A stretch of 64,000 nucleotides of DNA from Oceanithermus profundus DSM 14977 (lineage in GTDB: Bacteria; Deinococcota; Deinococci; Deinococcales; Marinithermaceae), in the NCBI RefSeq assembly GCF_000183745.1, contig NC_014761.1, positions 310,001 to 374,000 on the forward strand, written 5' to 3'. The notes below the pieces were generated by a model that was not told the origin of the DNA, made no database searches, and saw nothing but the letters and a program-made list of their open reading frames with translations. Position numbers and translations under genes: made by a program. Of this stretch, positions 27,176 through 32,741 are shown in pieces. The first letter of the stretch is position 1. The number at the start of each line of letters is the position of its first letter.

Positions 27176-27639
27176 GCCGGTTCGTCGTCCGCGGCCGCTT
27201 CCCGGGCGATCTCCGCGAGCAGCGGTTCCAGCTCCGGCCGCAGCGCCTCAAGGCGCGCCCGGCGCGCCCGTGCTTCGGGCTCGAGCTCCACGAGCACGTC
27301 GGCGTCGAAGTCCTGGGGCCGCCCCCACTCGATCAGGGTGAGGCGCGCCCCCGCCATCGCGTCCTCGAGCCCCAGGTCCCACAGCGACCGGGGGTCGGGC
27401 AGGCGGTAGACGTCGACGTGCAGCAGCGTTCCCGCGGGCGTGGGGTAGGTGTGCATCAGGGTGTAGGTGGGGCTGGTGACCCGGCCCCGAAAACCCAGAG
27501 CGCGGGCGAGGTGGCGGACGAGGGTCGTCTTCCCCGCGCCCATGGGGCCGGACAGCAGCACCACCGCGCCGGGCGGCAAGCGCCGGGCGAGCGCGTGCGC
27601 CAGGCGGGCGGTGGCGTCTTCGTCGTGCAGCCGGATCAA
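27172..27639 (-). CDS. tsaE: tRNA threonylcarbamoyladenosine biosynthesis ATPase TsaE
   Basis: A 155-residue P-loop ATPase that works with TsaB and TsaD to make t6A37 in ANN-decoding tRNAs. Walker A is GPMGAGKTTL (near 31-40), followed by SPTYTLMHTY and the Walker-B-like LTLIEWG. The start is TTG at 27639, overlapping the TGA of the upstream coiled-coil gene as TTGA, so translation is probably coupled. Its place at the end of the roadblock-protein operon is unexpected, as there is no obvious link to tRNA modification. Confidence 0.93.
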   Translation of the reverse strand: MIRLHDEDATARLAHALARRLPPGAVVLLSGPMGAGKTTLVRHLARALGFRGRVTSPTYTLMHTYPTPAGTLLHVDVYRLPDPRSLWDLGLEDAMAGARLTLIEWGRPQDFDADVLVELEPEARARRARLEALRPELEPLLAEIAREAAADDEPA

Positions 27640-30242
27640 GGCGTGGCGGAAAGACTCCGGTGGATCAGGGTGACGAGCCGGGAGAGTTGCGCCTTCTCGG
27701 CGAGGATGACCAGGTGGCGCCCCGCGTACGGCGCCAGCAGGAAGGCGTGGCCGGGCAGGGTGAGGACGGCCAGCCGCACCTGCTGCGCGCCGACCTCCTG
27801 GCGCAGGTGGTCGAGCTCGGTGAGCAGGTCGCGCACCCGGGCGACGTCCAGGTCGGCGGGCGGGGCCTCCTCGAGCCAGCCCACCCAGGTCACCCCGCGC
27901 ATGCGGAAGGGCGCGAGCGCGTCCTCGGCCCCCTCGCCCGCGGCCGGAGGTTCGGGTTCGGGCTGCGGAGCTTCGGCCTGCGGAGCTTCGGCCTCGGCGG
28001 GGGCCTCGAAGACGCCCAGTAGGTCGTCCAGGTCGGCGCCCGAAAGCTGTTCGGCCACCTCCCGGGCGGCGGCGAACTCCTGCTCGAGCTGGGTGACCAG
28101 CTGCTCCGCCTCCCCCAGCGAGCGCTCCATCTCGGCGAGGCCGCTCGTCCCCAGACGCTCGATGCGCCGCGCCCCTTTCTCAAGGAAGTCGAGCAGCGTC
28201 AGCGCCCGGTAGGCGGTCTCGCCGCCCACGGCCCGGGCGGCCTCGAAGCGTTCGCGCAGCGTGCGGTAGCGGCGGTCCAGCTCCTGGCGCCAGGCCTCGC
28301 GGCGCTCGAGCAGGGCGTGCAGGCGCTCCTTGAGGGGGGCGAGGTCGGGGAGCCCCGTCTCCAAAGCGGCCTCGGCCTCGGCGACGGCCTCGAGCAGCTT
28401 GTCGCCGCCGAGCTCCTTGAGGCGCTCGGCCGAGGCGCGCAGCGAACGCAGCTCCTGGCGTAGGTGCCCCTGGGCCTCGGCGATCTGTTGTTCGACCCGG
28501 CCCTCGAGCGCGCTCAGGTCGGGGAAACGACCGGCCTCGAGCTCGGCGCGGGCCTCGTCGACGCTGCCGGTGGCCAGCCCGAAGGCCTCGAGGCGTGCCG
28601 CCAGCTCGTCCAGGCGCGCCTGCGTGAGCCGCCGCGCCTCCGCCGCCAGGGCGGCCACCTCGTCCTCGACGCCGGCCGCCGCCCCCTCTTCGAGGCGCAC
28701 CCGAAGGCTGTCGCGGGTGCGCGCCAGCGGTTCCAGGTCGGGCAGGGCGTCCAGCTCGGCCAGCAGCCGCGCGCGCAGCGCGCGGGCGGCCTCGCCCGCC
28801 TGCGCCAGCTGGCTCAGCAGTTCGGGAAGCTCGGCCTTGAGGCGGCCCAGCAGGGCCTCGTCGACCTCGCCGGCCTCGAGCCCGGTTTCCAGGAGCGCCA
28901 GCCGCTCGCGGAAGCCCGCGAGCTCGGGCAGCTCGTCTTCGGGGAGCGCCTCGCGGGCGTGCTCGACCAGGCTGCGCGCCTCCTCGAGCAGCCGGCTCTG
29001 CCGCGCGCTCTCCTGCTTCTTGGCCGCGAGGGCCTCCTCCAGGGCCTTCACCTGGCGCTCCGCCTGCTCCAGGTCGCCCGGGAGCACGCCCATCTCGAGG
29101 CTTTCCTTGATGAGTTCCAGCTGGGTTCGGGCGCGCTGGCTGCCCAACTCGGCGTCCTCGAGCTCGAGGCTGCGAAGCCGCTCGGAAAGCCACTCGTAGC
29201 GTGCGCGCGCCTCGGCCACCGCGTCCTTGAAGGCCTCCTCGAGCGCGCGCTGCAGTTCGTCCAGGCGCTCGCCCGCGAGCTCGCCGGCGGCGAGCGCCGC
29301 TTCGACCGCCTCCAGCAGCGGCGCGACGCGCTCGGCCGCGAGGACGGCCGCGTACTGCTCCTTGAGCCGCTCCAGGCGGCGCCGCTCCTCGGCCAGGTCG
29401 ATCTCGCGGATGCGGTCGGCCACCTCGGGCTCGAGGTTCTCGAAGTCGATGAGGATCTCGAACTCCTCGCCCTCCCCCTCGCCCGCGACCAGCTCGGGGA
29501 CCTCTTCGTCCTCCAGCGCGATCACGCCCGCGTCGCCCGCGGCCTCGGGCGCCATTTCGGGGACGAGGGTGGGGTTTTGCACCACCGACGACTCGACGAG
29601 CTTGCGCAGGTCGGCGGCGAGCTTGCGGGCGCGCTCCACCTCGGCGGTGGCCAGGGTCTCTTGCTGCTGTGCCTCCTTGATCTGCTTGAGCAGCGAGCGC
29701 AGCCGGCGGGGCTTGGGCCCCCCGATGTTCTTCACGCGTTCGAGGGCGTCTTCGAGGTCCGAGATGTCGCGCGCCTGCCGCAACAGGGCGTTCTGCAGCT
29801 TTTCCTCGAGCAGGTCGATCTGGGCGAGCGCCTCCTTGAGCAGCTCCTCGGTGGACTCGCCCTCGCTCTCGCTGGCCTCGACGAGCGCGGCCAGGCTGCG
29901 CAGGCGCTGCACCTCGGGCCACTCGAAGTAGAGCTTGAAGCGCGAGACGGCCTGCTGCAGCGCCCGCTTGGGGTCGCGGCGGGCGGGGTCCGGCGTCCGC
30001 GCCGCGGGCGTTTCCTGGGCGAGGGCGCGCAGCGTCTCCTCGACGACCTTGCGCGCGCTCGCGGCGTCCATCTGCCCTTGCAGCTCGCGGTAGACGAAGC
30101 GTTTGAGCAGGATCGCGGCGCGGTCGGGGTCGAGCGCTCCGGGCTCGAGCCCCAGCCGGGCCAGGCCCTCCTTGAGGACGGCCTGGGTGCGGGCCCCCAG
30201 GTGGGGTTCCAGGGCTTCTTGGAGTCGGCTCAGTAGGGGCAC
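27636..30242 (-). CDS. Large coiled-coil protein with N-terminal helical domain and C-terminal roadblock/LC7-like domain
   Basis: An 868-residue cytoplasmic protein starting at GTG 30242 with GGAGG upstream. Residues about 1-77 form a helical domain (GLARLGLEPGALDP, FVYRELQGQM) that matches in pattern the N-terminus of the 217-residue protein two genes upstream. Residues about 110-740 are nearly continuous Glu/Ala/Leu/Arg coiled coil, interrupted by an acidic segment (VPELVAGEGEGEEFEIL). A Pro/Glu linker leads to residues 779-868, which resemble the roadblock/LC7 fold (GVTWVGWLEE, a helix, VRLAVLTLPGHAFLLAP, GRHLVILAEK, a final helix). It is the third gene of the operon, 25 bases after the membrane-protein gene. 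A structural, SMC-like or polarity-scaffold role is inferred only. Confidence 0.75.
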   Translation of the reverse strand: MPLLSRLQEALEPHLGARTQAVLKEGLARLGLEPGALDPDRAAILLKRFVYRELQGQMDAASARKVVEETLRALAQETPAARTPDPARRDPKRALQQAVSRFKLYFEWPEVQRLRSLAALVEASESEGESTEELLKEALAQIDLLEEKLQNALLRQARDISDLEDALERVKNIGGPKPRRLRSLLKQIKEAQQQETLATAEVERARKLAADLRKLVESSVVQNPTLVPEMAPEAAGDAGVIALEDEEVPELVAGEGEGEEFEILIDFENLEPEVADRIREIDLAEERRRLERLKEQYAAVLAAERVAPLLEAVEAALAAGELAGERLDELQRALEEAFKDAVAEARARYEWLSERLRSLELEDAELGSQRARTQLELIKESLEMGVLPGDLEQAERQVKALEEALAAKKQESARQSRLLEEARSLVEHAREALPEDELPELAGFRERLALLETGLEAGEVDEALLGRLKAELPELLSQLAQAGEAARALRARLLAELDALPDLEPLARTRDSLRVRLEEGAAAGVEDEVAALAAEARRLTQARLDELAARLEAFGLATGSVDEARAELEAGRFPDLSALEGRVEQQIAEAQGHLRQELRSLRASAERLKELGGDKLLEAVAEAEAALETGLPDLAPLKERLHALLERREAWRQELDRRYRTLRERFEAARAVGGETAYRALTLLDFLEKGARRIERLGTSGLAEMERSLGEAEQLVTQLEQEFAAAREVAEQLSGADLDDLLGVFEAPAEAEAPQAEAPQPEPEPPAAGEGAEDALAPFRMRGVTWVGWLEEAPPADLDVARVRDLLTELDHLRQEVGAQQVRLAVLTLPGHAFLLAPYAGRHLVILAEKAQLSRLVTLIHRSLSATP

Positions 30243-30267
30243 GGCGTCGGTTTACCTCCGGGTGGAG

Positions 30268-32091
30268 CTAGAACTCTTCGTCCCACTCCACGATCGTTTC
30301 GCTGGTGAGCGTGGGGTTGCGTTCCCCGGTCATGTCGGCCGAGGTCTGCACGGTGGTGGCCGCCTGACGGCGGTCCTGGATGAGGCCGAACTGGATGGCG
30401 ATGCCGCGCAGCCCCCAGGTGGCGAAGACGACGACGAGGAAGATCAACGCCCCCCAGGCCAGCTGCGCCACGATGTTCTGCAGGATCGAGAGGTTGTCGA
30501 GCACGAAGAGCTGCGGCACCCCCCCGTAAGTGGCGAGGATGTCGCCGAGGTAGCTGAGGCCTTCGATGATGCCCGGCAGCAGCAGGAAGAAGAAGGCGAG
30601 GCCCATGAGGCGCCAGTAGATGTTGCGGCCGCCGAAGGTCAGGTAGATCAGGTAGAGCGGGAAGAGGGCGAGCATGCCGACGAGGATGAAGAAGACCGCG
30701 CGGGGAAGGCCGAAGGTCGCGCGCTGCAGCGAGACCGTGAAGTCGTGCCAGGGGCCCAGCGGCCGCTCCAGCACGATGTCGGCCACGTTTTCCAGCTGGG
30801 CGTTGAGCACCGTGAGGTCCGAGGTGCGCAGACCCACGCCGCCCATCTGCTGCTCGAACATCGCCAGCGTCACCTTCGCCGCCTTGGGGTCGATGGCCTC
30901 GACGAGCGGATAGATCTCGTAGACGTAGCGGTTGCGGGCGTACTCCATGTACCTGCGGGCGTCCTGGGCGCGGCCCACGGAGACGTACGCCTGGGCGGTA
31001 GCCAGCAGGCCCTTGGTGATGTAGAGGCTGTTGCGCCAGTCGGTGTAGCTGTAGATCCCGACCTGCGCCATCGAGCGCGCGACCTTCTCCGCCTTCTTCT
31101 TGTCGCCGATCAGGAAGGTCATGTCCTGGTTGAGCTGCTCGATGGGCGAGACGAGGACCTGCGCCTGGATCTTGGGCTTGCCCGCGGCGGCGGCCGCAGG
31201 GGCGGGGGCCTGCGCGGGCGCGGCGGGCGCCGGCGCCGGCGCAGGCGCGGGCGCGGGGGCCGGCTGCGTTTGCGGTGCGGTGGGCTGGGGCGCGGCCTCG
31301 ACGGCGGGCGCGGGCGCGGGGGCCTGCGCGGGGGCGGCGGGTGCGGCCGCCGCGGCGGGGCCGGCCGCGCGGAAGAAGCGTTGCGCCGCGGCGATCAGCC
31401 GGTCGGTTTGCTGCTTGAAGCCGGCCTCGTCGCCGGCGACCAGCTTGGCGAGCGCGTCCACGTAGTCGCGCGCCAGGTTGTCGACCCGGGGCGAGTCCTG
31501 CACCACGAGGTAGAGGCCGTAGGCCTTGGCCGTCAGGGCGTAGGCCGAGGCGCGCTGCTTCTTCTGCTGGGCGAGCTGCAGCGACTTGTACATCGCCTCG
31601 GCATAGGCGCGCTCGAAGAGGGTGCGCAACCCCTCGATGTCGCCGGCCTGGATGAGCGGCACCGCCTTGGTCTTGAGGTCGGGGGTGCGCGCGGTGATCT
31701 CGATGAGCCGGTCGAGCAGCGCCAGGGCTTCGTCGGTGTTGCCCTTGTAGACGGCCTGGAACATGGCCTCGTACATCAGCTTGCCCAGGGAGCCGCGCAC
31801 GACCCAGAGCTGGCCTTCGAGGTCGGCCTTGCTCTTGCGCGACACGGCGATGCGGGCGTTGTTCAACGCCTGGACCACACCCTCACTCAACGCCTCGGGG
31901 ACGTTCTCGGCGCCGCTGCGGAAAATGTTGAGCGCGTCGTCGAGCGCCTGCAGGCTGGCGGTAGGATCGCGCAGCAGCTCGGTGCGCGCCGTCTCCAGTT
32001 TGGGGGCCAGCTGGTCGTAGAGCTGGGGGAGCGGCATCGCCCAAGCGACCGCGAAGAGAAAGACTAGAACGATCCAACGGGTGTGGTTCAT
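30268..32091 (-). CDS. Membrane protein with exported helical domain and cytoplasmic acidic tail (roadblock operon)
   Basis: A 607-residue protein. The ATG at 32091 overlaps the upstream stop by four bases (ATGA) and has GGAGG ahead. Residues 1-18 are a signal peptide (VLVFLFAVAWA). Residues about 20-245 and 305-455 are helical, with a 60-residue Ala/Pro linker between. Three clear membrane helices follow at about 463-486, 492-511 and 539-559, and the tail of about 45 residues ends TSETIVEWDEEF. With an exported N-terminus and three helices after the signal, the tail would be cytoplasmic. I do not recognise a family. Its position between two genes for related roadblock-like proteins suggests that these bind its tail. 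Confidence 0.75.
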   Translation of the reverse strand: MNHTRWIVLVFLFAVAWAMPLPQLYDQLAPKLETARTELLRDPTASLQALDDALNIFRSGAENVPEALSEGVVQALNNARIAVSRKSKADLEGQLWVVRGSLGKLMYEAMFQAVYKGNTDEALALLDRLIEITARTPDLKTKAVPLIQAGDIEGLRTLFERAYAEAMYKSLQLAQQKKQRASAYALTAKAYGLYLVVQDSPRVDNLARDYVDALAKLVAGDEAGFKQQTDRLIAAAQRFFRAAGPAAAAAPAAPAQAPAPAPAVEAAPQPTAPQTQPAPAPAPAPAPAPAAPAQAPAPAAAAAGKPKIQAQVLVSPIEQLNQDMTFLIGDKKKAEKVARSMAQVGIYSYTDWRNSLYITKGLLATAQAYVSVGRAQDARRYMEYARNRYVYEIYPLVEAIDPKAAKVTLAMFEQQMGGVGLRTSDLTVLNAQLENVADIVLERPLGPWHDFTVSLQRATFGLPRAVFFILVGMLALFPLYLIYLTFGGRNIYWRLMGLAFFFLLLPGIIEGLSYLGDILATYGGVPQLFVLDNLSILQNIVAQLAWGALIFLVVVFATWGLRGIAIQFGLIQDRRQAATTVQTSADMTGERNPTLTSETIVEWDEEF

Positions 32092-32741
32092 GGTTGACCT
32101 CCTTTGGCCTCGTAGCTGTTTAATACGTGCAGCAACCTGCCGAGGTTGGCCTCGCGCTTGGCCACGAGGGCGACCAGTGCAGGTCCGAGGGGGCGCACGA
32201 GCACCTGACCCTCCTGGAAAACGCTATAAAATAGTTTATACGGTTTTTGCTTTTGCAGGAGGCTGTGCACCACCCCAAGGATGGGGGCCAGGTCCTCCAC
32301 CCCGGGGAGCCGGGCCTCCTGGTAGGAGGGGCCTTGCAGCAGCACCCCGCTGACGCCCTCTTCGCGGGCCAGCTCGTTGACCAAGCCTTCGCGGGCCTCC
32401 GCGCGGTCCAGGTCGACCTCGCGACGCGGAAGGATCAGGGTGTTGCGGTCGCCGGCGGCGGCCGGCGCCGGCGCCGGCGCGGCGGGCTGGGGCCGGGCCG
32501 CTGCGGCCTCCTCCAGGCCGCGCAGCACCCGCCGCAGCGCGCCCGTGGGCTCCTGGATGGGGAAGACCTGCTGCAGCTCGGCGAGCAGCGGGCCGCGCAC
32601 GAAGCGCACCCAGGCCTCCGGGCCCATGGCGTCGGGGTTGACGCCGGCCCGGCGAAGCGCCCGGTTCATGATATTTTGCGCCGCAACCGGCGACGCGTAC
32701 TCGGTGAGGGCCTCGACCACGAGGCGTTCGATTTGCGGCAT
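32088..32741 (-). CDS. Small roadblock/LC7-like protein with helical N-terminal domain
   Basis: A 217-residue protein, first gene of the operon, with GGAGG before the ATG at 32741 and a TATAAT box upstream. Residues 1-78 form a helical domain (ALRRAGVNPDAMGP, LLAELQQVF) whose pattern matches the 868-residue protein. A Pro/Ala linker spans about 80-97. Residues about 117-212 have the roadblock/LC7 layout: helix (VNELAREEGVSGVLLQG), strand, helix (LAPILGVVHSLLQ), then FYSVFQEGQVLVRPLG, ALVALVAKREANLG and a final helix. Proteins of this fold (MglB, roadblock) form dimers and regulate small GTPases or act as scaffolds. No MglA-type GTPase gene is adjacent. An AT-rich patch encodes residues 166-175. 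Confidence 0.75.
   Translation of the reverse strand: MPQIERLVVEALTEYASPVAAQNIMNRALRRAGVNPDAMGPEAWVRFVRGPLLAELQQVFPIQEPTGALRRVLRGLEEAAAARPQPAAPAPAPAAAGDRNTLILPRREVDLDRAEAREGLVNELAREEGVSGVLLQGPSYQEARLPGVEDLAPILGVVHSLLQKQKPYKLFYSVFQEGQVLVRPLGPALVALVAKREANLGRLLHVLNSYEAKGGQP
32225..32240. repeat. AT-rich palindrome inside the small roadblock gene
   Basis: TATAAA-ATAG-TTTATA, 16 bases with perfect 6-base arms, inside coding sequence of about 70% GC. On the minus strand it offers TATAAA-like -10 boxes and might be an internal promoter for the membrane and coiled-coil genes. Confidence 0.35.

Follow-up and report, generated by a model that had tools for sequence, protein, structure and literature searches.

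Two related roadblock-type proteins and a membrane protein encoded together across sampled Deinococcota

Among the housekeeping genes of Oceanithermus profundus DSM 14977 lie three genes for proteins that match no named family, which raises the question of whether they encode a single system and, if so, where its parts meet. The window, meaning the whole stretch of 64,000 nucleotides analyzed here (positions 310,001 to 374,000 of contig NC_014761.1), comes from a 2.44 Mb genome of two contigs (G000; chromosome length 2,303,940). On its minus strand, to which all coordinates below refer as numbered within the window, the gene order is hrcA, a moaD-moaE fusion, S, M, L, and tsaE; the identities of hrcA, the fusion, and tsaE were confirmed by Pfam. 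S (32088..32741) encodes a small roadblock-type protein of 217 aa, M (30268..32091) a membrane protein of 607 aa, and L (27636..30242) a large roadblock-type protein of 868 aa that starts at GTG. All three are delimited by open reading frames and orthologs, and M by its predicted structure as well. The S and M reading frames overlap by 4 bases (ATGA), M and L are separated by 25 bases, and L and tsaE overlap by 4 bases (TTGA), in agreement with the coordinates, the junctions, and the tight S/M/L/tsaE operon given in a preliminary description of this DNA. All three proteins fall short of every Pfam and NCBIfam cut-off, and annotation pipelines would leave them unnamed. The matches that these libraries did return for the window proteins (BrxC helical, GltG, SMC, and MCP_Sipho) were at chance level, driven by composition, or due to coiled coil, and were rejected.

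S and L are related at both ends, as the preliminary description had proposed. When profiles built from the orthologs of S (A1) and of L (A2) were compared end by end with hhalign, the N-terminal domains aligned at 98.5% (profile-profile E 2.4e-15, over 78 columns) and the C-terminal domains at 95.6% (E 1.2e-8, over 97 columns), against only 0.1-0.2% in the crossed control comparisons. Each end profile also pulled the other protein out of the gene set, and these profiles had zero matches among shuffled sequences. The shared N-terminal domain spans aa 1-81 of S (32499..32741), where AlphaFold places four helices (3-12, 18-32, 41-59, and 67-81), and aa 1-79 of L (30006..30242), which profile comparison identifies as homologous to aa 2-79 of S. 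The same domain occurs in a third paralog, a protein of 791 aa in genome G018 (locus L054, 6147-8522; E 1.6e-23 for the domain with the Lnt profile), which adds an L-like helical stretch and in which a roadblock domain is not detectable. Given this paralog, the N-terminal domain seems to be a reusable module.

The C-terminal end of S is predicted to adopt a roadblock fold. In the AlphaFold2 model of S (pLDDT 85 overall), a disordered linker separates the four-helix N-terminal domain from a Roadblock/LC7 domain at aa 107-212 (32106..32423), over which the pLDDT is mostly 89-95. Foldseek returned 69 matches in the PDB at E <= 0.001, the best of which were roadblock/LAMTOR chains (E 7e-6 to 4e-4, prob 1.00), with TM-scores by target length of up to about 0.7 for the top matches. 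The sequence profile of S matched Robl_LC7 7f8m in the PDB with an E of 0.0012 and, weakly, cvnB5 3leq with an E of 0.022. The S protein of the window has no match to Pfam Robl_LC7 (PF03259) at the gathering score, and 3 of 38 S orthologs match this family weakly (best E 4.7e-4). The roadblock fold suggested in the preliminary description is therefore borne out for S, which by modeled fold and by profile can be placed as a divergent Roadblock/LC7 relative lying below the Pfam cut-off.

The corresponding domain of L (aa 778-862, 27657..27911) was located by its hhalign alignment to the C-terminal domain of S. Its profile retrieved standalone Pfam Robl_LC7 proteins (E 1.9e-9 and 3.5e-7) and had 0 matches in a shuffled protein set, and this profile homology points to a roadblock domain at the C-terminus of L as well. 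The unrelated C-terminal folds that the preliminary description had named as counterevidence were not seen. An N-x-G motif that is invariant in S is missing from the C-terminal domain of L.

Between its shared ends, L contains a helical insert of ~690 residues relative to S. The preliminary description had read L as S enlarged by a coiled coil of about 650 residues; the long helical insert stands, but the term giant coiled coil overstates it, because the longest runs free of glycine and proline are 45 residues, the periodicity over residues 500-745 peaks at 3.6 (z 9.2) rather than 3.5, and there is a weak internal repeat of ~58 residues. The heptad signal is clear over residues 86-230 (z 5.8 at a 3.5-residue period) and over residues 270-500 (z 4.2). 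Periodicity and repeat analysis delimit a helical rod at aa 273-745 (28008..29426), containing the weak ~58-residue repeats and glycine and proline breaks, and these sequence features favor a chain of helical hairpins over one continuous rod. The best conserved part of L in the ortholog alignment is the region of aa 101-220 (29583..29942), with the strongest conservation at aa 101-120 and 141-220, and this region is absent from S. Aligned L proteins are 650 to 980 aa long, and searches of the PDB with L returned helical noise only.

M begins with a signal peptide-like segment (aa 1-18, 32038..32091), which is followed by two confidently predicted all-helical domains (aa 21-242, 31366..32031; aa 316-459, 30715..31146) on either side of a Pro/Ala-rich linker (aa 243-315, 31147..31365) that has low pLDDT over most of its length. 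Weak TPR-like Pfam matches fall over the first helical domain in some orthologs. Three transmembrane helices (aa 462-567, 30391..30708; hydrophobic helices at about 458-488, 491-516, and 534-571) carry an invariant FGG-N loop and a G--GI--Q-G motif, and they lead into a mostly disordered tail (aa 568-607, 30271..30390; pLDDT below 50 over 576-602 and 604-607). Because the charges follow the positive-inside pattern, the tail is predicted to be cytoplasmic and the two helical domains periplasmic. Together with the signal-like N-terminus and the hydrophobic helices, this charge pattern bears out, at the level of prediction, a signal-bearing protein with three membrane helices and a cytoplasmic tail. 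No relative of M was found in the PDB by fold (the Foldseek matches, with a best E of 0.13, were for the most part noise from GPCRs and helical bundles), and PDB searches by sequence gave nothing beyond noise.

The tail ends in the peptide ETIVEWDEEF (30271..30300), which we propose as a docking motif on the basis of its conservation and of its disappearance alongside S and L, described below. Across five families, the consensus at the end of the disordered tail is [E/D]WD[E/D]EF, and W603, D604, and E606 do not vary among 30 orthologs from these five families; the ~25 residues before the terminal motif vary freely in both sequence and length. SSB likewise has an acidic/aromatic C-terminal docking peptide. 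The likeness is one of analogy only, consisting of a disordered tail that bears a short, invariant, acidic peptide with Phe as its last residue, and M differs from SSB in the sequence of the peptide, in being a membrane protein, and in having no DNA role.

We surveyed 111 Deinococcota genomes, none of them recognizable as Deinococcus, with M (C-terminal part), L, and the S profile. All three proteins were present in 94 of the 111; a further 11 genomes, most of them incomplete assemblies, had one or two, and six had no match at the thresholds used, although profile searches found a truncated M retained in two of these six. Wherever a single contig carried both S and M (88 genomes), the two were adjacent and co-oriented, and they stayed paired even where the surrounding genes differ; M and L were adjacent and co-oriented in 46 of 61. 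The genus of the window retains the ancestral order hrcA-moaE-S-M-L-tsaE, as for the most part do its sister, f2, and f3. S-M-L is contiguous in genera g24 and g25 of family f4, and most of f5 keeps M-L together. L has left the S-M pair in a Thermus-like genus (g6), a Meiothermus-like genus (g12), g23, and genus g3 of family f1, and in the last of these the relocated L is still beside tsaE; tight linkage of L is thus not required. The synteny survey proposed in the preliminary description accordingly found the trio inherited together across the phylum rather than dispersed, and this co-occurrence, with the constant adjacency of S and M, supports the idea that S, M, and L are one functional unit. 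A scan of contigs matched only three close Thermaceae MAGs, and tblastn searches of plasmids with M and S found nothing.

Several neighboring and related genes were noted alongside the survey. Downstream of L, tsaE follows in Oceanithermus-like and Trueperaceae-like genomes, and a relA/spoT-like gene follows, as judged by eye, in Thermus-like genomes and in g24/g25 (L099, L100, L103, L106, L111, and others). In Trueperaceae-like genomes (L107, L109, L134, L138, and L139), an MreB-like gene (GVDLGTATVLIYVKGKGI) was seen, also by eye, after tsaE-tsaB downstream of L. Roadblock genes occur at other loci as well. On contig C2 of the genome that carries the window, an MglA-like GTPase (Pfam Arf) adjoins a Robl_LC7 protein at about 1.66 Mb (L142, 5163-6248), likely the canonical MglAB pair, and at about 165 kb a small GTPase-like gene (Pfam ATP_bind_1/MMR_HSR1; L141, 5131-6051) adjoins a standalone roadblock gene downstream of response-regulator genes. 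Two to three small roadblock-like genes after recR (L140, 4985-6062; L143, 5742-6822) make up a second roadblock cluster in the family.

The two genomes G023 and G034, both of genus g11, bear on where the three proteins meet. In both, S and L are missing at the locus and tsaE comes directly after M, with about 70 bases between moaD and M in G023, and genome searches did not find S or L elsewhere in either. M persists (profile E ~3e-53) but stops soon after its last membrane helix (...NGRRGGTLVREGRGA, ...NGGRRGPVVRETRAS), without the WD motif. In G109, of the same genus, S and L are present and M ends in VDWDDDY. G019 and G110, which are Truepera-like, have L but no full S that could be detected, and their M proteins end in LDWDEDF and LNWDEDF. 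Among all readable C-termini of M, the motif is missing only in the two genomes without S and L. Since genomes without a full S keep the motif and genomes without both proteins lose it, the tail of M tracks L rather than S. The two congeneric genomes record a single evolutionary event, and this co-loss of tail and L cannot alone separate S from L as the receptor or exclude a general decay of M. The near-invariance of the terminal motif and its disappearance along with S and L support the tail as the meeting point, as the preliminary description had placed it, and suggest that the proteins may bind there.

On balance, we favor a reading in which S, M, and L together make up a single scaffold at the inner membrane, ancestral to the sampled Deinococcota, and in which the tail of M docks the roadblock proteins. 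M would be the anchor of such a physical complex and possibly its sensor, with two helical domains in the periplasm, three helices in the membrane, and a flexible tail in the cytoplasm. The terminal [E/D]WD[E/D]EF would dock the roadblock proteins, with L as the likeliest direct receptor, perhaps together with S. S and L would probably pair as dimers through their roadblock domains, their N-terminal domains, or both, and the helical rod of L and its conserved 101-220 region may bind another protein in the cytoplasm, for which an NTPase/GTPase of the sort that roadblock proteins regulate is the most plausible candidate. The preliminary description had conjectured homo- and heterodimers on the tail of M and a coiled coil that reaches a distant partner, for example in envelope organization, polarity, chromosome anchoring, or twitching motility. 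More tentatively, M may act as a transmembrane receptor that presents its invariant C-terminal peptide to S and L, relaying or anchoring a periplasmic state to a partner on the L rod, as a bacterial analogue of Ragulator type; we regard this more specific picture as plausible but hold it loosely. In Ragulator, roadblock dimers sit on the tail of a membrane anchor. The likeness to Ragulator/LAMTOR (p14-MP1 and HBXIP-C7orf59 on LAMTOR1) is one of layout only, namely roadblock-fold subunits and their proposed anchoring by the disordered tail of a membrane subunit. M crosses the membrane with three helices and has periplasmic domains, unlike LAMTOR1, a lipidated peripheral protein to which no homology of M was detected, and we make no claim that the two anchors share an ancestor.

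Roadblock proteins, which are seen as NTPase regulators of ancient origin, can also be purely structural, and eukaryotes provide the best-known cases in which they serve as platforms anchored to a membrane. Regulation would be the main role if S and L acted as GAP/GEF-like proteins or adaptors of an MglA-type small GTPase, with M as the receptor and the module setting polarity or type IV pilus activity. MglA is a known target of roadblock proteins such as MglB (PMC4316618), and the genome has both the MglA-like GTPase beside a Robl_LC7 protein and the second GTPase-roadblock pair. MglB, the roadblock GAP of MglA in Thermus thermophilus and Myxococcus xanthus, has the bacterial Roadblock/LC7 fold in common with S and L and is also found in Thermus. 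Unlike MglB, however, S and L add the N-terminal four-helix domain, L has ~690 residues more, a membrane protein accompanies them, and there is no adjacent GTPase gene: none lies in the operon, and none was noted in or near any of the S-M-L loci read. The MglA-like gene is at another locus, already with its own roadblock neighbor, and we judge this account unlikely. Streptomyces conservons (CvnB roadblock, CvnD GTPase) are also conserved bacterial operons with a roadblock protein, but they contain a histidine kinase and a GTPase, and S-M-L contains neither. A purely structural role, in which the trio tethers envelope to cytoplasm (in the envelope, cell-wall synthesis, or division) and the roadblock domains only dimerize, with no NTPase, would suit the large predicted periplasmic domains of M, the long helical rod of L, and a C-terminal domain of L without the N-x-G motif of S. 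The MreB-like gene of Trueperaceae-like genomes also favors such a tether, but neighbors are mostly housekeeping genes, so that its proximity may be chance, and we consider the tether, too, an improbable account.

It is highly improbable that L is an SMC-like coiled coil tethering the nucleoid or chromosome to the membrane: the weak match of L to NCBIfam SMC_prok_B (E 2.9e-5) that favors this role spans helical sequence only and scores 22 of 567 bits, far under the curated cut-off, and searches of Pfam, NCBIfam, and the PDB found no ATPase head or DNA-binding domain in L. That S, M, and L are merely neighbors in a conserved housekeeping cluster would agree with the conserved housekeeping character of most flanking genes (hrcA, moaE, and tsaE) and with the separation of L from S-M in Thermus and Meiothermus. 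Set against this are the two domains that S and L have in common, the persistence of the S-M pair in differing surroundings, and the joint loss of S, L, and the M tail, and we find mere proximity very unlikely.

A 2026 Tn-seq study of T. thermophilus reports no clear split between essential and non-essential genes (PMC13140390). In the open literature, outside of which most subscription journals lie, we found no description of the S-M-L module, the M family, the N-terminal domain of S and L, or the tail motif. The roadblock fold is known, and the trio, as a roadblock-based regulator or scaffold, is apparently undescribed. Built on two related roadblock proteins, a bacterial membrane module of phylum-wide occurrence offers a concrete, testable case in the genetically tractable thermophile Thermus thermophilus, and the proposed ten-residue docking peptide, together with the natural deletion of that peptide, makes the module testable.
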